A stretch of 64,000 nt of DNA from Methanomassiliicoccales archaeon LGM-RCC1 (GCA_030168575.1 CP115555.1:62001-126000); one strand, 5' to 3'; positions 1 to 11,635 are shown, numbered from the stretch's first letter. Numbers and translations are program-made. Notes: generated by a model not told the origin, from the letters alone.

Positions 1-94
1 CGACAACAAACTGGAGGATGCGACGATAAGGAAAACGAACCTGGAGGACGTCTTCGTGGAATTGACCGGTAAATCGGTAGGTGATCAGAAATGA
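1..94 (+). CDS. ABC transporter ATP-binding protein, C-terminal end (partial)
   Basis: Only the last 30 codons are in the window; the reading frame starts at base 2. The tail contains NLEDVFVELTGK, which matches the usual C-terminal motif (LEDVFLxLTG) of ATPases that drive ABC-2 type exporters. Its TGA stop overlaps the ATG of the following permease in an ATGA junction, so the two are translationally coupled and form one exporter. Substrate cannot be told. Confidence 0.8.
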   Translation, partial: DNKLEDATIRKTNLEDVFVELTGKSVGDQK

Positions 95-879
95 GCGAGA
101 ACGTCAACGGATACAAAAGGTACAACGGGTTCTTCCACCAGGTCTACCACATAGCATGGTCCGACCTGATGTTCCTGAAGCACAACGTCGCGAACATAGT
201 CATCATGACCATCATGAGCCCGCTGCTCTACCTGATAGCTTTCGGTTACGGACTCAGGACCGGAGAAACGGACATAGGCGCATCCTACGTCGCTTTCGTC
301 ATCCCCGGAATCATGGCACTCTCGTCGCTATCGTCCTCGTTCGCCTCCACATCCACGAGGCTGAACGTCCAGAGGTTGTATTACAAGAGCTTCGATGAGA
401 TGATGATGTGCCCTGTGAGCCTTTCCGCCATAGTGTTCGGAAAGAGCGTACTGGGCCTGATCAGGGGAATGATCGGATGCTTCCTGATGTACGCGCTGGG
501 CCTGTTCCTGGCGCCCGAACTCCAGCTCACTCCGCTCGCAATCGTTTCTGTGATTCTGAGCTGCGAGGTGTTCTCTCTGCTTGGAGTCGCCGGAGCGTTG
601 CTGGCCAAGTCACATCAGTCCATGGCGACCTTCAACAGCCTGATCATCCTTCCGATGACCTTCCTGTGCGGTACCTTCTTCTCGGTATCGTCGCTGGACA
701 CCGTCTTCCAGGTTATTCTGTACTGCCTGCCTCTGACCCACAGCAGCCTTTGCATAAGGGCTGCGTGTCTGCCAGAGTACCTTCCAGACTTCCCATGGAT
801 ATCGCTGATCGTGATATTCGCGTTCGGGGTGGCGCTGTTCATATTGAACTATTACCTGCTGAAGACCAGGAAGTTCTGA
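91..879 (+). CDS. ABC-2 type transporter permease
   Basis: A 262-residue integral membrane protein with about six hydrophobic segments, ending in a basic KTRKF tail. The arrangement resembles DrrB/NodJ-type permeases that pair with a separate ATPase to export drugs, polysaccharides or lipids. The central region has the family's conserved feature around residues 108-140 (a segment resembling ...SVLGLIRGMIG). It overlaps the upstream ATPase by four bases and is followed after ten bases by a GC-rich hairpin. The family call is firm; the exported substrate is unknown. Confidence 0.85.
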   Translation: MSENVNGYKRYNGFFHQVYHIAWSDLMFLKHNVANIVIMTIMSPLLYLIAFGYGLRTGETDIGASYVAFVIPGIMALSSLSSSFASTSTRLNVQRLYYKSFDEMMMCPVSLSAIVFGKSVLGLIRGMIGCFLMYALGLFLAPELQLTPLAIVSVILSCEVFSLLGVAGALLAKSHQSMATFNSLIILPMTFLCGTFFSVSSLDTVFQVILYCLPLTHSSLCIRAACLPEYLPDFPWISLIVIFAFGVALFILNYYLLKTRKF

Positions 880-913: not shown

Positions 914-2188
914 TCATGAATTGCGAACACCGTGAAGGATCTCGTCCAGGATGTACATGGCGCCCTGGATCCCGTAGATCGGCCTGGGGATCACATCATC
1001 CAATCCCATAGAGGAGTGGCCGATCGGGATTCCAATCTTGCATTCACCGTTGAGTTTCATCGTCAATGCGGTGATACCTTCGCTGAGGACCACATCGGAA
1101 CCGACCAAAGGCTCCTTCCCGAACGAATCCCCATAGTCGATGCTCGCCAGGAACTCCTTTATCTTGGCGATCTCGCCCTCGTCGGAACCAGGATCCGCAT
1201 CTACGGCAATCGGCGCCAGTGCCAGATAATCATAGAGCCACATCGTCATGGGCCTTATTACGGAGGCGATTCCCGCAATGGAGAACCTCAGTCCCTTGAT
1301 ACGTAGAGCGTTGTACTTCATCCCTACGAACTTGCGATAGATCTTGTCCCTGGCCTTGGCGATCCTCATCAAAGGTACGGACGCGTCCTTGCCGGTTGCC
1401 TCAGCGATGGTCTTGTACCAAGCCTCGGTGGCGTCGAAGCCTACTGGAGCGCCGGCATCGGACTCGATGATCTTCAGGCCCGTTGATCTGTAGAATTCGC
1501 ACAGGTCGTGGCATGCCTCCTTACATACGACCACGCAGTACTCGGAATCCACTGATTCCCTCAGGGACTGCAAGTCCGCTCCTGCTCCTAGAATGCTCCT
1601 GACCTTGAGACCCATGGACTCGATGTTCTCCTTGAACTCGTCCAAAGCGCTCTCCCAATCCTTGTCCAGGACGGTCATGCCCAGGATATTGACGGTGTCC
1701 TTCACCGTCTCCCCTTTCTTCGGATCCAGATGCTCCATTATCTCGTGGAGGGTATGGTCGTAGCCCTGAGTGACCGGCATCGAGACTAGAGCCTCGTCCA
1801 TCCAGATCGCACGGTCCTCCATTCCGGCCTCGCGTATTGCCCTCTCATGGTTGTCTCCGATGAGCCCGGCTCCCGGAGAATTAATAATGACCACCAGTCC
1901 GGGTTTCTTGGAATCTATGATCGGAAGCCCTTCCTCCAGCTTATAATAAGCCCCGTTTATGAAATCGTATTCGTCAAGATATGTGGCAGGAACCCTGGGG
2001 TAACCATAGAAATAGGGAATGAAGTAATCGTCATGCTCCTCCAGCCTCATCCTTGGGAAAACAGCGCTGGAGTACACCATGAACCTAACCCTGCATCCTC
2101 CTGGCCCGTGAAGCATCGCCAACGCATCGGATATGCTCTCTACGGCCATCACAGCACCCACGAATCCATCCGGCAGAGTGCGCTTCAT
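914..2188 (-). CDS. Nitrogenase-like component 1 subunit (NifK/NifE-like)
   Basis: A 424-residue protein of the nitrogenase component 1 superfamily, which also includes BchN/B, CfbD and MarD/K. The N-terminus carries LHGPGGC with Cys32, equivalent to the second P-cluster cysteine. The first ligand position is FVGA rather than a Cys motif, and the third site reads NSPGAGLIGD with no Cys. So this subunit offers only one cysteine ligand, an asymmetric arrangement reminiscent of BchB, which supplies a single Asp. It overlaps the upstream NifH-NifD fusion by an ATGA junction, so the two are made together and probably form a heteromeric catalytic component. Substrate is unknown. No nifB, nifE or nifN is nearby. 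Confidence 0.85.
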   Translation of the reverse strand: MKRTLPDGFVGAVMAVESISDALAMLHGPGGCRVRFMVYSSAVFPRMRLEEHDDYFIPYFYGYPRVPATYLDEYDFINGAYYKLEEGLPIIDSKKPGLVVIINSPGAGLIGDNHERAIREAGMEDRAIWMDEALVSMPVTQGYDHTLHEIMEHLDPKKGETVKDTVNILGMTVLDKDWESALDEFKENIESMGLKVRSILGAGADLQSLRESVDSEYCVVVCKEACHDLCEFYRSTGLKIIESDAGAPVGFDATEAWYKTIAEATGKDASVPLMRIAKARDKIYRKFVGMKYNALRIKGLRFSIAGIASVIRPMTMWLYDYLALAPIAVDADPGSDEGEIAKIKEFLASIDYGDSFGKEPLVGSDVVLSEGITALTMKLNGECKIGIPIGHSSMGLDDVIPRPIYGIQGAMYILDEILHGVRNS

Positions 2189-4329
2189 CTCATCTCACCC
2201 CTCTTCCATCCCTCCATGACTGGAAGGCGCATTATGTTCTCAAGATACTGAACATAGTCCAGGACCGGCCTGAGCCCGATACCTATCTTTCCGACCCTGG
2301 CAAAGCGTATGCCGTCATCAGGTCTGGCGATGTCCGATATTATCAGGTCGGGCCTCAGGACCTTCAGGTCCTCCTTCATCTTCTCAGAATCATAATCCTG
2401 CGTTATGATGTCCAGATGCCTGGACACCAGTTCGGCCTTCTTCTTCCTTCCGGAAACCTGGACAGCTACCTTCACCAGGTCAGCTCCCAGATCAATGAGC
2501 AGGTCGATCAGCCAATCGACATTGAATGACAGCTTGTTGAGGATTATGATCTTCTTGCCGTCGAAACGAGGGCGGTGCTCCTCCACGAACACATCGTAGA
2601 TCGCCTGCACCCTCTCAATCTCGGACTTGGCAGTATCCACCATATCTAATTGATCGCCTAGGCGGGACATCCAATCCTCGTAATCGTAAAGCCCGACGGG
2701 CAGAGGAATAGGGAACAGGTCCCTTCCGGTCCTCTCACGGACCAGTTCGTACAGCTCCCTATTGTTCGCGGTATCGTTAAGAAGCATGTCGAAAGAAGCC
2801 CTGCAGAATCCAACGACCTTTTCGGAAGTCGTCTCGTCCAATAGATTGCAGTTGATCCTCAATCCGAACCTGCCCAGCATCTCTTCCAGATCCTCCCTGT
2901 TCCTCTTGGTCTGGACATCGTAGAACGATGTGGCGATGATGTTAACCAATCCCTTCTCCGGCTTGACATCGAGGTCTACGGACTGGAGTATGTTCGATAC
3001 CGCCATCATGAAACCATCGGTGTACTCCCCAGCGATGTCTCCGTCCGCGGGGACATACTGGATTTCGACACTCGGATTCTCTTTCATCATCCTGTCGATG
3101 ACACTTATGCAGTCATCACCGATGATTCCGGGCATGCATGTGGTGACCACAGCTATCTTCCTGTGACCCTCGGCAATTGTGTCATTGAGAGCCTTCTCCA
3201 GATACTTGACTCCGCCAAAAATCGATACGGCATCATCCATCATGGTGCACCTCAGATGATGTGTGGGATCCGTCTTGAAAACATCCCTACCATATAGCTC
3301 CAGGATGGCCTTGCTGCGGGACGTGTCCATGAAATACAGACAGCTCTCCGGACCGTGGAGCACCACTGCGTAATCGCTTAACTTCATGTATGCTGCCAGC
3401 GCACCGTATGCGGCGCACGACATCATGATGCGTGAGTCCCTGATGGATCTCTTGCACCGTGTGCATCCGCCGCAGGGATCTCGAATCGTCCCGGGCTCTC
3501 CTGGGCGTATCTCCCTTCCGGCCGCGAGATCCGATAACTGGTCATCGTTGAGAGGATGCGGGTAGACGCAGGATACCTTTCCCTCGGAAACATCGATGAT
3601 ACGCTGGGCAACCAGATCTATCGATTTGGAGATCTCCGATTCGGGGAATATCTCCCTGACTGTGTGGCCCTGTCCCTCGGCCTCTGCGAACAGGTTGTCA
3701 CGAGGCATGACGGCGATGACCTCCGTACCGGTGGCGGCTGCGAACCTCTTGACGAGCTCTTCCTCCCCATCGACCCCTCTGGAGTTCAGTAGGATACCTA
3801 TCAGGCGCGGGGAGCCCGTGTCAAAATTGGCCAGCCCTTTCATGATGTTGTTCGCGGCGTACATCGCCATGAATTCCCCGGATGTTACCAGGATTATACC
3901 ATCCGCATATTCGCCTCTCAGCGGAACTGCGAAACCTCCGCAGACAACATCCCCCAGGACGTCATAGATCTTCATATCCACGTCCAAGGAGTCAGCGCCG
4001 AGCTTTTTCAGAGTGTCGAATGTTGTGAGGATTCCGCGCCCTGCACACCCTATTCCAGGTTCCGGTCCCCCAGCCTCGGTGCATAATACACCCTCGGTGC
4101 CTTCCATTATGAGATCGTTCAGATCTCTCTTCCCGATTGGTGTGTTCCTTACATACTCAAGCACCGTAGGCTGCGCCTTTCCGCCTAAGAGCAATCTGGT
4201 GGAATCATGTTTCGGATCGCATCCGACCTGCATGACCTTACTTCCTTTCTTGGCGAGAGCGACGGAAATGTTGGCTGCCATGGTGGATTTGCCAATACCT
4301 CCCTTTCCGTAAAGTGCTAGCTGATACAT
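2185..4329 (-). CDS. Fused NifH-like reductase and NifD-like catalytic subunit
   Basis: One 714-residue chain joins a NifH-type ATPase to a component 1 domain. Numbering from the ATG at 4329: P-loop GKGGIGKST (8-16), the [4Fe-4S] ligands Cys95 (IGCAGRG) and Cys130 (DVVCGGF), and switch motif GCDPKHD. A linker has CGGCTRC (Cys286, 289, 292), probably an extra cluster. The D-like domain has all three cluster cysteines: Cys305 (SCAAYG), Cys330 (GPESC) and Cys398 (TTCMPG). Cys509 (GFCRAS) sits near where NifD has its cofactor Cys275. The start at 4329 is preferred over the ATG at 4356 because a TATA box (4358-4366, minus) would start the transcript near 4337, and NifH proteins begin at this Met. 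In canonical systems H and D are separate genes. It is likely an ATP-driven two-component reductase, substrate unassigned. Confidence 0.85.
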   Translation of the reverse strand: MYQLALYGKGGIGKSTMAANISVALAKKGSKVMQVGCDPKHDSTRLLLGGKAQPTVLEYVRNTPIGKRDLNDLIMEGTEGVLCTEAGGPEPGIGCAGRGILTTFDTLKKLGADSLDVDMKIYDVLGDVVCGGFAVPLRGEYADGIILVTSGEFMAMYAANNIMKGLANFDTGSPRLIGILLNSRGVDGEEELVKRFAAATGTEVIAVMPRDNLFAEAEGQGHTVREIFPESEISKSIDLVAQRIIDVSEGKVSCVYPHPLNDDQLSDLAAGREIRPGEPGTIRDPCGGCTRCKRSIRDSRIMMSCAAYGALAAYMKLSDYAVVLHGPESCLYFMDTSRSKAILELYGRDVFKTDPTHHLRCTMMDDAVSIFGGVKYLEKALNDTIAEGHRKIAVVTTCMPGIIGDDCISVIDRMMKENPSVEIQYVPADGDIAGEYTDGFMMAVSNILQSVDLDVKPEKGLVNIIATSFYDVQTKRNREDLEEMLGRFGLRINCNLLDETTSEKVVGFCRASFDMLLNDTANNRELYELVRERTGRDLFPIPLPVGLYDYEDWMSRLGDQLDMVDTAKSEIERVQAIYDVFVEEHRPRFDGKKIIILNKLSFNVDWLIDLLIDLGADLVKVAVQVSGRKKKAELVSRHLDIITQDYDSEKMKEDLKVLRPDLIISDIARPDDGIRFARVGKIGIGLRPVLDYVQYLENIMRLPVMEGWKRGEMR

Positions 4330-4357
4330 AGTATCCTGAATAGAATAATCTAACATG

Positions 4358-4500: not shown

Positions 4501-5223
4501 ATGGGAATCAATATCGGCATCTGTGAAATGGAAGCGAAGAGCGCATCATGCAGAGAACTTAGGTCCACAATAATCAGAGTCCATGTTGACAAGACAGAGG
4601 GCTTTGAGGATATCTTGCAGTACGAGGACATCGTCGATCTCGAAACAGCCAAGAAAGCTGTCGGTGACTGGGATGCCTTCATCAAAAGGAACAGGATCAA
4701 CGAGGAAACCGATGCTGTTTACATGAGCAAGGTCAAGAAGGACGAGGACATCGCACTTCTCCAGCCTCTTTCCAAGAAGGTCTGCACCGGATGGATTGCC
4801 ATGGAGGGTCTCCCCGAGGACAAGAAACAGGCCGTTCTGAAAGTCGCCAGCAAAGACGACATCATCACAGGCTGGGATCAGCTGGAGTTCGATGAGATGA
4901 ACGAGATGTGCGCCAAATGCCCGCTGTCATGGGACAAGGGACGCGGATGCATCGGAGCGTTCGGACCCGACACCAGCAAACTCCCCGAGATCGCTGCCAA
5001 ATACAACTGCCCCATAACGGCTTCAGCACCCGAATCGTCCAAGTCGCACAAGATCTTCACACCCAAGGATGCCGAGGCTCTCCTGAAGGAAGTCGAGATC
5101 CTGAGGGATGCCCTTCCGAAAGAGGGAAAGGTCTTTGTAAACCGCTACGGAGGACCAGTCGACAGAATGGAAGCTGTCGCCAAGATCTCCGTTGCAGAGG
5201 GTTGCGGCTGGTATTTCTTCTGA
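4501..5223 (+). CDS. Conserved-looking Cys-rich protein of unknown function
   Basis: A soluble 240-residue protein I do not recognise. The cysteines Cys137, Cys140, Cys150 and Cys170 (CAKC...GRGC...YNC) are spaced CX2CX9CX19C and could bind an iron-sulfur cluster or zinc. Other cysteines are at 8, 17 and 95, and the C-terminus is AEGCGWYFF. It is divergent from the nitrogenase-like operon across a 171-base region with an operator-like palindrome, and convergent with an iron-sulfur flavoprotein that begins right after its stop. That context suggests, but does not prove, a redox role linked to the nitrogenase-like enzyme. An alternative in-frame ATG lies at 4528. Confidence 0.75.
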   Translation: MGINIGICEMEAKSASCRELRSTIIRVHVDKTEGFEDILQYEDIVDLETAKKAVGDWDAFIKRNRINEETDAVYMSKVKKDEDIALLQPLSKKVCTGWIAMEGLPEDKKQAVLKVASKDDIITGWDQLEFDEMNEMCAKCPLSWDKGRGCIGAFGPDTSKLPEIAAKYNCPITASAPESSKSHKIFTPKDAEALLKEVEILRDALPKEGKVFVNRYGGPVDRMEAVAKISVAEGCGWYFF

Positions 5224-5805
5224 TCAGCGGTAACCGTTCAAACGCAGGATGAGGTCGGTCATGCCCTCTACCAGGGCGCAGACCCCCTTCATCCCCTGCT
5301 TGTCATCCTCATACTGAGGAGAATTCAAGGCATGGACTATCGGCAGAGGATTCGAACCACAGACGACCATGCCGTTGCGGAGCATGAAATCCACCATCTG
5401 ATTGTAAACCAAGGATCCTCCGTCATGGGCGCAGACTGAGAAAGCACCACCCACTTTTCCTTTGAGACCCAGATCTCCCTTCTCGAATACCAATGCCGCC
5501 CTCTCCATGAAAGTCTGAAGGACGCTTGGACAGGCTCCCGCGTAGGTGGGGGATGCCATCAGGATACCATCTGCTGCCCTCATTTTATTGAGGATCCCGT
5601 TGAAGCCATCGTCCTCATCCATGCACCTGCCATCGCCGCGTATTTCACAGGTGAGACAAACGTTGCAGTTCACGAGTTGATACTCGTAGATGTGGATTAC
5701 CTCCATCTCGATGCCTTCCCTGCCGAACATATCCTGCACCTCATTGAGGATGTTGCTGGTGTTGCCGATAGGGCGCGGACTTCCGTTGATGGCGATGACT
5801 TTCAT
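5224..5805 (-). CDS. Iron-sulfur flavoprotein (NADPH-dependent FMN reductase family)
   Basis: A 193-residue flavodoxin-fold protein. The N-terminus VIAINGSPRPIGNTS binds the FMN phosphate, SPTYAGACP is the family's second flavin motif, and Cys47, 50, 53 and 61 form CX2CX2CX7C, the compact [4Fe-4S] motif of the archaeal Isf family. These proteins shuttle electrons between ferredoxin and acceptors, including oxygen or peroxide. The start at 5805 is chosen over the ATG at 5823 because GGGGAAAT precedes it and the flavin motif then begins at residue 2. It ends one base past the stop of the convergent Cys-rich gene. Its place beside the nitrogenase-like genes makes it a candidate electron carrier. 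Confidence 0.85.
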   Translation of the reverse strand: MKVIAINGSPRPIGNTSNILNEVQDMFGREGIEMEVIHIYEYQLVNCNVCLTCEIRGDGRCMDEDDGFNGILNKMRAADGILMASPTYAGACPSVLQTFMERAALVFEKGDLGLKGKVGGAFSVCAHDGGSLVYNQMVDFMLRNGMVVCGSNPLPIVHALNSPQYEDDKQGMKGVCALVEGMTDLILRLNGYR

Positions 5806-5917
5806 GATTTCCCCATCGTCCACGACTTTATTAAGGATTATCGGGCGAAAACCTCCGATTGCTGGAAACCCTAGCCGAACGCTTAATAACAGCGTTAAAA
5901 CTTCTTAACATTCGTAG

Positions 5918-8624: not shown

Positions 8625-9413
8625 TTACCTTCTCTTCACCGAACCGTGCAGGAACACCGTGTTCTCGTTGGTCTTGTCATCGAACACCAGTTCCGCATCT
8701 ACTCCGAACACGTCGGCCATGTTCTCGGGGGTGAGGACCTCCTCCGGCGTGCCTATCGCCAAGATCGTGTGGTCCTTGATCAGGAGGACACGGTCGCAGT
8801 ACCTTGCGACCATCCCCAGATCGTGGGACACGATGACGACCGTGAGCCCGTCATTCCTCGAAAGGTCCCTGACGAGGTCCAGCACATCGAACTGGGTGTT
8901 GATATCCAGGTGCAGAGTCGGTTCATCCATCAGAAGGATCTGCGGGGTCTGGGCGAGGGCTCTTGCGATGATCACCCTCTGCCTCTCCCCTCCGCTCATG
9001 ACGTTGATGTGCCTATCGGCGAAATCGGACAGGCCCACGCGCTCCAGGGCCGCATCCACGATGGTCTCGTCGCTGGTCGACATCCCCTCCATGAGCCCTT
9101 GGAACGGCATTCTGCCCATGGAAACGATGTCCCTGACCGTGAACGAGAACCTGACCTCGTTGGTCTGCGGGACCACGGCCACCTTCTTCGCGATGTCCTT
9201 CTTGGAGATGTCCTCTAGATCCTCGCCGTCCAGCAGGACGCATCCAGTCTGCGGCGACAGGTTCTTGTTTAGGTTCTTGAGCAGAGTGGTCTTCCCGCAG
9301 CCGTTCGGCCCGAGGATCCCGATGATCTCCCCCTCCCTGACCTGGAGGTCCACATCCTCAAGGACCGGCCGCTTGGAGTACGTGTACGACAGCCCTCTGG
9401 TCTCCAGCGTCAA
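8625..9413 (-). CDS. Iron/cobalamin-type ABC importer ATP-binding protein
   Basis: A 262-residue FecE/BtuD-family ATPase with Walker A GPNGCGKTT, signature MSGGERQRV, Walker B ILLMDEPT and the H-loop in IVSHD. The start is a TTG at 9413 that overlaps the permease stop (TTGA); GGAGGTG lies 9 bases upstream, and the protein then begins MTLETRGLSYTY as in the family. A longer reading frame upstream is only read-through inside the permease gene. It works with the permease and the anchored binding protein upstream to import an iron chelate, heme or corrinoid; which one is not decidable from sequence. Confidence 0.88.
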   Translation of the reverse strand: MTLETRGLSYTYSKRPVLEDVDLQVREGEIIGILGPNGCGKTTLLKNLNKNLSPQTGCVLLDGEDLEDISKKDIAKKVAVVPQTNEVRFSFTVRDIVSMGRMPFQGLMEGMSTSDETIVDAALERVGLSDFADRHINVMSGGERQRVIIARALAQTPQILLMDEPTLHLDINTQFDVLDLVRDLSRNDGLTVVIVSHDLGMVARYCDRVLLIKDHTILAIGTPEEVLTPENMADVFGVDAELVFDDKTNENTVFLHGSVKRR

Positions 9414-10444
9414 TTCCAGCCCACCTCCTTCTTCCTCCTGATGAGCAGGTAGATGAACAATGGAGCTCCGATCAGCGATGTGACCACTCCGATAGGCAGC
9501 GTGCCGTAATACGGCGCTATGACGTGAGTCAGATAGTCGCATATCAAAATGAAGCATGATCCGGCAACCATCGCCAGAGGCATGATGACCCTGTTGTCCG
9601 GGCCCAGCAGGATCCTTAGGATGTGCGGGATCACCAGACCTATGAATCCTATGACACCGACGAACGACACCGCTGCCGCGACGACCACCGTCGTCAGTAT
9701 GAGGATGAACAGCCTGGTCTTCCTGACGTCGACCCCCAGGTCCATGGCGTGGGCGTCCCCGAGCATGAGGACGTTCAGGTTCTTGGCCTGCGTTATCAGC
9801 AATGCAGATGCGACCGTGATGATCGGTGCAGCGAAGGCTATCTCGCCCCAGTCGGCGTTGCCAAGGTTACCCATGGACCAGAACACTATGCCCTCCAGCT
9901 TCTCGCCGGAGATGAACGTGAGGAAAGACACCAGTGCTGAAAGCAACGCCGAGACGGCCACTCCCGATAGGATGAGCGTCTCGGTCCTGACCACGTTCCC
10001 GGTGCGGGCCATGGTGTACACCAGGGCCATCGTGAGGAAACATGTGACGAATGCGAGCACAGGGGTAGTTATGGCGACCGGTATGAACGGTATGACGAAG
10101 AGCATGCTGATCGCGGCCCCGAGAGATGCTCCCGAGGACAGACCGAGGATGTAGGGTGATGCGAGGGGGTTCTTGAACACCGCCTGCATGGCCGCTCCCG
10201 TGACCGCAAGTCCGGCACCCACGAAGATGCCTATGACCACCCTGGGTGCGTTGATGCCCAATATGATGATGTTCTGGGACCAGGTTCCCTTTCCCATAAG
10301 GGTGTCTATGACTTCCTGGAAGGTGTATGAGTTGCCCTCCGAGACCCAAGACAGGTCGAGGAGCACACAGAAAACGGTAAGGGCCAGGGTCGCCACCAAA
10401 GTGATGGCGAACCCTTTGGTCCTGAATAGTTTGGTCCCGTTCAT
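9410..10444 (-). CDS. FecCD/BtuC-family ABC permease
   Basis: A 344-residue polytopic protein with about ten membrane segments. Family motifs are present: GAxLAVTGAAMQAVFKNPLA, the GLSSGASLGA segment, and VGVIGFIGLVIPHILR near the C-terminus, the coupling-helix region that meets the ATPase. (Motifs are quoted in part.) Its ATG overlaps the stop of the binding-protein gene by one base and its stop overlaps the TTG of the ATPase, so the three genes are one translationally coupled operon. Confidence 0.92.
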   Translation of the reverse strand: MNGTKLFRTKGFAITLVATLALTVFCVLLDLSWVSEGNSYTFQEVIDTLMGKGTWSQNIIILGINAPRVVIGIFVGAGLAVTGAAMQAVFKNPLASPYILGLSSGASLGAAISMLFVIPFIPVAITTPVLAFVTCFLTMALVYTMARTGNVVRTETLILSGVAVSALLSALVSFLTFISGEKLEGIVFWSMGNLGNADWGEIAFAAPIITVASALLITQAKNLNVLMLGDAHAMDLGVDVRKTRLFILILTTVVVAAAVSFVGVIGFIGLVIPHILRILLGPDNRVIMPLAMVAGSCFILICDYLTHVIAPYYGTLPIGVVTSLIGAPLFIYLLIRRKKEVGWN

Positions 10445-11568
10445 CAGTCATTCCTCTTCGAGGCCTTACCTGAGGACCTCATGAAGAAGAATGCGACAGC
10501 CAGTATAATAACGACCGCTACAGCACCGGCGATTATGTACATCATCGTGGTGTCGGTGGAGCCTCCGGCCTCGGGGACGTCACCGCTGAACAGATCGGGG
10601 TACATGGCGCAGGCCATGGTCCAGACGCCCGTGGCGCTCTCGATGGAGAAGTTGTTCCATATGCCGTCCAATGCGATGATCTTCTGATCGTTGCCGAATA
10701 TTCCCCTGAGGTAGTTCATATGGTCCTGGCTGTCGGCGATCTGACTGTCGGCGAAGATCATGACGTCGGGATAGTTCTCCTTCAACATGGGGAGACTTAC
10801 CTCTATCGTGCTAGCACTCTTGGAATCGTCCTTGGTGACGACCTTTCCGCCGGCGGTCTCAATCATTATCGTCGTGATGGAGCTCGTATTACCGACCTTG
10901 TATACGCCGCTCGAGTAGGTGATGTAGAATGCCTCCTTCGGGGCCTTGTTCACCTTGGACAGCGTCTCGGAGATCGTGTCCGCCACGAGGCTCATCCTCT
11001 TGGCGTTGTCGTCCACCTTGCCGTTGCATACCATGGAGATCGTCTCCACGAATGCGATGATGTCGTCGTAGGTCTTCACGCTGCTGTCCCAATAGAGGAC
11101 GTTCTTGAACCCGTAGGTGTCCAGGAAGGCGAGGTTTGCCTTGTACGACGGGGAGACGATGGCTATGACGACATCCTTATCCTTGTCGAACTTGCCCTTG
11201 GTGGGTTCGGCGGCATCGACGATGTCCGTCTCCAGCTGGGCCTTTCCGCTGCTGTAGATGTTACCGTTGGCGGCGATCCTGCCCTCCTCGATGTATGCCC
11301 TGAGCTTGTCGAAGACGGAGCTGGCATTGGTCTTCGAGTAGGAATCACACACCACAATCTTGTCGAGTGCGCCCACTCCGATGGCTGTAGCGGTGGCGCC
11401 GACGCCTATGGTCATTATGTGGTCGACGGGGCCGTCGAACGTGAATTCCGTCCCCTCTCCGTCCTTGACTGTGAACGCCGCATCCGAATCCTCGCCAGAT
11501 AACACTATGGATACGGATGCGAAAATCATAATGGCCACCATGGCCAGAGCTGTTAATTTGGTGTTCAT
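10444..11568 (-). CDS. Membrane-anchored metal-chelate ABC substrate-binding protein
   Basis: A 374-residue periplasmic-binding-protein-like lipoprotein relative. It has an N-terminal signal helix (MNTKLTALAMVAIMIFASVS), a likely cleavage or anchor zone at GEDSDAAF, the binding fold, and a C-terminal membrane helix (IIAGAVAVVIILAVAFFFM) followed by basic residues. A tether at the C-terminus is common in archaeal binding proteins, which lack a periplasm. The start at 11568 is chosen because the signal peptide begins there; an ATG 63 bases upstream gives a poor N-terminus. First gene of the importer operon. Confidence 0.85.
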   Translation of the reverse strand: MNTKLTALAMVAIMIFASVSIVLSGEDSDAAFTVKDGEGTEFTFDGPVDHIMTIGVGATATAIGVGALDKIVVCDSYSKTNASSVFDKLRAYIEEGRIAANGNIYSSGKAQLETDIVDAAEPTKGKFDKDKDVVIAIVSPSYKANLAFLDTYGFKNVLYWDSSVKTYDDIIAFVETISMVCNGKVDDNAKRMSLVADTISETLSKVNKAPKEAFYITYSSGVYKVGNTSSITTIMIETAGGKVVTKDDSKSASTIEVSLPMLKENYPDVMIFADSQIADSQDHMNYLRGIFGNDQKIIALDGIWNNFSIESATGVWTMACAMYPDLFSGDVPEAGGSTDTTMMYIIAGAVAVVIILAVAFFFMRSSGKASKRND

Positions 11569-11596
11569 AATATCACTTATTGGAGGAAAAATATTA

Positions 11597-11621
11597 CAAG
11601 TTAATAATACTATTGAACTTG
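11597..11621 (-). promoter_or_regulatory. Operator-like inverted repeat before the metal importer
   Basis: CAAGTT (11597-11602) and AACTTG (11616-11621) with a 13-base AT-rich spacer; the near-match continues inward (AATA / TATT). It lies 29 bases before the binding-protein ATG, in the promoter zone, and may be a metal-responsive repressor site. Inference. Confidence 0.45.
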
Positions 11622-11635
11622 AAAGTAACACCCAT

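Follow-up and report, generated by a model that had tools for sequence, protein, structure and literature searches.

The window analysed here is a stretch of 64,000 nucleotides (G000:C1:62001-126000) from the 1.66-Mb single-contig genome, G000, of Methanomassiliicoccales archaeon LGM-RCC1 (GCA_030168575.1, CP115555.1:62001-126000). Window positions 914 to 4,329 hold a two-gene unit, HD-K, which encodes a nitrogenase-like enzyme. All features of the unit are on the minus strand, with the gene for a fused NifH-NifD-like protein (HD) first and that for a NifK-like subunit (K) second. HD was delimited by open reading frame (ORF) calling, Pfam, and homolog starts. Its ORF spans 2185-4356 (723 aa), with 4356 as the upstream end. 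Because homologs begin at an equivalent methionine, the start is placed at Met10, base 4329, giving a protein of 714 aa at 2185-4329; the same base ended the unit in an earlier reading made from the DNA sequence alone (the sequence-only reading). The 424 aa K protein (914-2188; Oxidored_nitro, 5.5e-38) overlaps HD by 4 bp (ATGA).

Numbered along the ORF, the NifH domain covers residues 10-279 (3520-4329; Fer4_NifH at residues 12-279, 3.8e-88; Fe-protein fold) and the NifD-like domain residues 314-723 (2188-3417; Oxidored_nitro at residues 314-677, 1.3e-51). Fer4_NifH and Oxidored_nitro are thus on a single 714 aa chain, as the sequence-only reading had proposed. Between them is a linker, residues 280-313 (3418-3519), which is variable among the fused proteins. 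In the structure model of HD, the predicted local distance difference test score is below 50 at model residues 279-303, indicating that the linker is disordered. The fold matches listed for this model are all Fe proteins, and its predicted template modelling score (pTM), 0.53, is too low for a reading of the domain arrangement. The model of K (pTM 0.83) has its best PDB fold matches in DPOR BchB, closely followed by nitrogenase and Mar chains. BchB is also the best NCBIfam match for K, well below its cut-off (9e-16, 57.7 bits against 490), and the top match for the H domain is CfbC, also below its cut-off (319 bits against 402). With PF00142 and PF00148 domains, a NifH-type ATPase, and NifD/K-type subunits carrying cluster cysteines, HD-K belongs to the nitrogenase-like superfamily.

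The Walker A motif GKGGIGKST (residues 17-25; 4282-4308) is invariant in 14 of 14 aligned sequences, as are the [4Fe-4S] ligands of the H domain, Cys104 (4045-4047) and Cys139 (3940-3942). The D domain has three cysteines that are invariant in the fused family: Cys314 (3415-3417), Cys339 (3340-3342), and Cys407 (3136-3138), equivalent to NifD Cys62, Cys88, and Cys154. All three are kept in the 26 fused D rows of the alignment, although the first of them in locus L017 falls outside its trimmed row and is visible in a separate alignment. K has a sole cluster cysteine, Cys32 (2093-2095), equivalent to Cys95 and present in 26 of 26 K sequences; the same column has Asp in BchB and Cys in BchZ. The asymmetric set of three D cysteines and one K cysteine described by the sequence-only reading is therefore found family-wide, but its likeness is not to BchNB alone, as an identical 3+1 set is seen in the aligned BchY and BchZ.

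Eight rows, those of NifD, NifE, one Vnf-like, and five Mar/Isr-like D proteins, all have the cysteine corresponding to NifD Cys275 (the Mar/Isr-like rows are named by gene context and family matches rather than by identity to characterised proteins). All 26 fused D rows lack it, as do BchN, BchY, and CfbD. NifD His442 is likewise not retained in fused D. The absence of the Cys275 ligand makes an iron-molybdenum cofactor (FeMoco) or L-cluster-type cofactor unlikely. With its 3+1 ligands and missing FeMoco cysteine, the site is DPOR/COR-like, and the natural reading is a mode of the DPOR/COR/CfbD type, in which the organic substrate itself would occupy the cavity. NifB is of no help in this regard: a homolog is present in the window genome, but NifB is found in all good-quality congeners, equally in those without HD-K, so that an argument against the L-cluster from its absence is unusable.

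The linker also contains a CxxCxxC (residues 295-301; 3454-3474). Such a motif between the domains had been noted before, and it is present, but as a local trait. The third cysteine is found only in the nearest relatives of the window protein, a broader gut clade has CxxC, and the Syntrophomonas and SAR324 proteins have no linker cysteines. It was therefore rejected as an additional conserved cluster of the family.

Distribution and origin of the fused family

A genome scan recovered the fusion, as a full-length fused frame or match, from eleven metagenome-assembled genomes (MAGs) of Methanomethylophilaceae or Thermoplasmata, and from two Syntrophomonas and one SAR324; the L019 match is full length with a broken frame and L020 is truncated at a contig end. 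How often the fusion occurs had been raised by the sequence-only reading, and the answer is in more than 30 homologs, far beyond chance. Its recurrence at these loci, throughout the Methanomassiliicoccales and in Syntrophomonas and SAR324, rules out an assembly error. Two candidates were not accepted: L071, which has H and D on separate ORFs, and L019 as an H-D-K triple fusion, since the HD part of its 1142 aa ORF is in the wrong frame.

By K-profile search, 91 of the 147 Methanomassiliicoccales genomes contain the family, with as many as 8 matches in one genome. Of 295 genomes sampled from the phylum, only members of this order had it. In the paralog loci examined H and D are again fused; the HD frame is broken in L134. 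Seven to eight K-profile matches are present in each of three single genomes of 1.5-2.4 Mb (G090, G088, and G092), some of which may be gene fragments or D-domain cross-hits, and there are up to 43 FecCD permeases (in G090). These numbers represent a strong lineage-specific expansion.

The H domains form one clade (SH-like approximate likelihood ratio test support 100), as do the D domains and the K proteins (100/99 each), and these clades are separate from the Nif, Bch, Cfb, and Mar/Isr-like sequences. The fused family is thus defined by NifH fused to D, by monophyletic H, D, and K, and by the 3+1 cysteines. The sister of the H clade, with moderate support (87, quick search), is CfbC together with NifH-like proteins encoded beside FecBCD importers; three labels in this tree (NifH_L043, L068, and L070) are provisional and partly wrong. 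Bacterial members are nested within the H clade. Since H, D, and K each form a single clade, the fusion appears most likely to have arisen once and then spread. Placement in CfbCD or Mar, against which the sequence-only reading could be judged, was not seen. Its description of a poorly known reductase with a tethered electron donor and a substrate other than N2 agrees with this single-origin fusion, the clades of its own, the separate cfbCD, and the lack of FeMoco ligands, and is probably correct.

The relatives of G000 are Methanomethylophilaceae, order Methanomassiliicoccales, mostly MAGs from rumen and gut. G000 has separate cfbC, cfbD, and cfbB genes away from the HD-K locus, making the fused enzyme an addition to the F430 enzyme. 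The only PF00142 matches above cut-off in G000 are CfbC and fused HD; no other free NifH was found by this search, and the fused H domain is therefore the obvious electron donor. No NifE/NifN match was found in G000, which has just three PF00148 matches genome-wide. The complete congener G076 has neither HD-K nor CobN, so the system is dispensable.

Fusions of this type have been noticed before. Dos Santos et al. in 2012 mentioned a NifH-NifD-type fusion without follow-up (PMC3464626), and Borrel et al. in 2014 listed a 'fused nifH/nifE' for Ca. M. intestinalis (PMC4153887). The 2012 fusion has the same architecture and was reported from Archaea, Firmicutes, and Deltaproteobacteria; it is very probably the same family as HD-K. 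That account is one sentence, with data not shown, and the fusion was left out of the tree, with no clade, copy number, ligands, or context given. Among the nitrogenase-like enzymes HD-K stands as a distinct variant, one that had been noticed but not described. In the literature covered, which excludes most subscription journals, there is no report of up to 8 copies of HD-K, of its association with CobN/FecCD, or of CobN as its immediate neighbour, nor any paper that connects CobN with nitrogenase-like genes.

CobN chelatases, importers, and other neighbours

Among the 147 genomes of the order, 80 have both K and CobN, 11 have K only, 4 have CobN only, and 52 have neither. The odds ratio for co-occurrence is 95, and 83 within the family, although p-values overstate independence because the genomes are related. 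Copy numbers also correlate within the genus, K with CobN (rho 0.85) and K with FecCD permeases (rho 0.84). Ten K genes in eight genomes are less than 1 kb from CobN; for others the distance is 2-19 kb, and some show no linkage. In the Methanomassiliicoccales, the same-strand order is CobN-HD-K in L191 and L131 and HD-K-CobN in L124. In SAR324 (L023), HD-K is followed after a 7 bp gap by a CobN-type chelatase and is itself flanked by FecCD importer genes.

In G000 itself, the HD-K unit is at the end of a region that extends from 25 to 66 kb in the genome. Three CobN genes are found in this region, along with a gene for a ChlI/D-like AAA protein and genes for BtuC-like permeases and dockerin-type binding proteins, all within 40 kb; ABC-2 exporters are encoded there too. 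The permeases near CobN are closest to BtuC, and one CobN is preceded by a CobO/BtuR-like gene and an FMN reductase (identified by eye). One of the CobN-like genes passes the TIGR02257 CobN cut-off, and in sequence these proteins resemble CobN and ChlH more than HmuS. Methanothrix-related genomes have unfused HDK beside CobN and the same dockerin-type proteins, thus the CobN link recurs outside the fused clade.

Several genes closer to HD-K were also compared. A BtuCDF/FecBCD-type importer, identified from ORFs, Pfam, and locus comparison, consists of an ATPase, a FecCD permease, and a substrate-binding protein (8625-11631, minus strand); its permease is the FecCD match at G000 71437-72378. 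A flavodoxin-fold FMN reductase (5224-5823, minus strand; FMN_red, 6e-26) is a conserved neighbour. Divergent from HD-K is a 240 aa protein (4501-5223, plus strand), kept in eight loci by locus comparison, for which no Pfam or NCBIfam match was found; it has a Cys-rich stretch, CAKCPLSWDKGRGC. On the other side, a convergent gene with profile matches to an ABC-2 export permease (91-879, plus strand) is also kept in relatives.

Other observations were made around these loci. In-frame TAG codons interrupt HD in L120, L125, and L189, and are found in otherwise intact CobN and HD genes also at L195 12599-16447 (G000 approximately 48.6-52.4 kb) and in L213-L218. Most positions differ among genomes; G000 and G040 have one in common. 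This suggests that UAG is read through as pyrrolysine at scattered sites in a PylS-bearing lineage, rather than marking a conserved functional residue; in G000 itself a PylS match exceeds the cut-off. LarB/LarC-type (nickel pincer cofactor) genes are 2-7 kb from HD-K in L018 (14442-15943), L021 (9431-11559), and L022 (18413-20579), in both methanogen and Syntrophomonas, possibly by coincidence. In Methanothrix and Methanosarcinales (L056, L068, and L070), unfused H has CobN and dockerin-type substrate-binding proteins, the latter in arrays, as neighbours, with D and K also present at L056 and L070. This system runs parallel to the fused one. At many loci from Lachnospiraceae, Treponema, Phascolarctobacterium, and Clostridium (L024-L063), unfused NifH-D-K is beside genes for substrate-binding proteins and FecCD, without CobN, and in one case (L024) near FeoB. 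These sets resemble an as yet unexplained system for uptake of metal, heme, or cobamide in gut bacteria.

Proposed function and alternatives

It is nearly certain that HD-K would act as an ATP-driven reductase. The family travels with metal-chelatase and B12/heme-type import genes, which makes a ring-shaped metal cofactor the most likely substrate, rather than N2. The probable role of HD-K is reduction of a metallo-tetrapyrrole in concert with a CobN-type chelatase; an imported metallo-tetrapyrrole as the substrate class is given about an even chance. In such a system, a heme, corrinoid, or related ring would enter via BtuCDF/FecBCD-type importers, and the CobN-type chelatase would remove or insert metal, in tetrapyrrole or metal salvage or remodelling. 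HD-K would be built like DPOR and COR, as an ATP-dependent two-component reductase, but with its Fe-protein tethered. Ferredoxin would reduce the [4Fe-4S] cluster shared between two H domains, and ATP hydrolysis would push the electrons to the single [4Fe-4S] cluster at the D/K interface, held by three D cysteines and one from K. From there they would pass directly to the organic substrate, in the cavity where nitrogenase holds FeMoco. Tethering fixes H:D at 1:1, against 2:1 in nitrogenase, and, judged by the geometry of nitrogenase, (HD-K)2 could then form only one Fe-protein dimer in cis, or pair between complexes.

Several points weigh against a ring reductase tied to CobN. Several K copies are far from any CobN, and 11 K-bearing genomes, some near complete, lack it. 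The window HD-K is 10.5 kb from the nearest CobN, with a 7% chance of being that close. In Syntrophomonas, HD-K adjoins Fur and a Znu-type importer instead, and the gut-bacterial relatives have FecBCD without CobN. FecCD importers transport siderophores too. No substrate-specific residue was identified in HD-K. Heme, corrinoids, and other rings are all candidates: the BtuC-like permeases and the CobO/BtuR-like gene beside one CobN favour corrinoids, and the gut-bacterial relatives beside FecBCD, once near FeoB, favour iron or heme.

Some of these points would suit reductive metal release, in which the importer delivers an Fe(III) or other chelate of a non-tetrapyrrole metallophore and HD-K reduces it, freeing the metal. 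FecCD copy number follows K copy number, related unfused HDK in gut bacteria is beside substrate-binding protein and FecCD genes and once near FeoB, and the Syntrophomonas unit has its Fur and Znu-type neighbours. This is unlikely, though not greatly so, as it leaves the CobN co-occurrence and operons and the like-for-like link in Methanothrix unexplained, and Fe(III) reduction would hardly seem to call for an ATP-driven donor of the DPOR type. HD-K could also be a corrinoid activator, reducing cob(II)amide to Co(I), a state of very low potential, for adenosylation, remodelling, or methyl transfer with the ring intact. The BtuC-like permeases and the CobO/BtuR-like gene and FMN reductase ahead of one CobN are consistent with this, and cobalamin reduction was proposed for some nitrogenase-like proteins (NflD) in the 2012 survey, where nitrogenase-like genes were also seen beside ABC transporters (PMC3464626). 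However, no link to methyltransferase genes was seen in the mapped loci, up to 8 copies are hard to explain, and a chelatase would be unnecessary; the idea is quite unlikely.

The remaining alternatives lie within the superfamily itself. Reduction of a C-S bond, as by methylthio-alkane or isethionate reductase, would again be a reaction on substrates other than N2 (PMC12552129, PMC11423573), and sulfur compounds were among the substrates that the sequence-only reading proposed to test. It is now disfavoured and very improbable: the clades are separate, the Cys275 ligand of Mar/Isr-like D is absent, IsrDK has the opposite cysteine pattern (1+3), and no NifB-like radical SAM, O-acetylhomoserine sulfhydrylase, or sulfonate importer is present in the HD-K loci that were mapped, in contrast to L071 and L169. 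There is equally little to recommend a second F430-pathway reductase. The H domain is close to CfbC, its top NCBIfam match, but below that cut-off; cfbC-cfbD-cfbB is complete elsewhere in the genome, CfbD has no K partner and is in its own clade, and HD-K is missing from the complete congener G076. A true nitrogenase or FeMoco scaffold shares the PF00142/PF00148 domains, and the genome has a NifB homolog, but with no FeMoco ligands or NifE/NifN match, and with NifB equally present in congeners without HD-K, this is hardly credible.

Extending the metallo-tetrapyrrole reading, it is tentatively proposed that gut methanogens and some bacteria may run several parallel cycles of tetrapyrrole salvage (or tetrapyrrole-metallophore use), each with an importer, a CobN-type chelatase, and a ring reductase with tethered Fe-protein. 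If true, the superfamily would gain a new reaction and the orphan archaeal CobN homologs a role. HmuS takes iron out of heme in gut bacteria, and the 2025 HmuS paper describes the role of archaeal CobN/HmuS homologs as unclear (PMC12583661); the tie to CobN bears on this question. Together with the B12/heme-type importers, it gives a concrete substrate class to assay. The fixed 1:1 ratio of donor to catalyst is a test of how Fe-protein dimers must dock. The hosts, rumen and gut methanogens in which HD-K is common and multi-copy, produce methane in livestock, and their cofactor supply is of practical interest.

Comparison with known systems

The analysis defines a nitrogenase-like clade apparently mentioned once or twice and then set aside. 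HD-K lacks the Cys275 and His442 in D and the nifEN of Nif, Vnf, and Anf nitrogenases. MarHDK and IsrHDK are, like HD-K, nitrogenase-like HDK reductases, but they have a NifB-like partner gene, a separate H, Cys275 (in the Mar/Isr-like rows), and in Isr another cysteine pattern; by clade, Cys275, and partner gene, HD-K falls outside this group IV type. CfbCD has a related H domain and is a tetrapyrrole reductase of the same organism. It differs in being unfused and without a K subunit, at a separate locus and in a separate clade; HD-K neither scores above the Cfb cut-offs nor clusters with CfbD.

There are also likenesses to the Bch enzymes, DPOR and COR; by Bch scores and clade HD-K belongs to neither. 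DPOR (BchLNB) has the 3+1 ligand layout and provides the nearest fold and family matches for K, but BchB has Asp in place of the Cys, BchL is separate, and K is far below the BchB cut-off. COR (BchXYZ) shares with HD-K three D-type and one K-type cysteine, the lack of a FeMoco cysteine, and a heteromeric DK, and differs in its separate BchX, photosynthetic hosts, and different clade. Among the class I chelatases (CobN/ChlH/HmuS), it is CobN-like genes that co-occur with HD-K.

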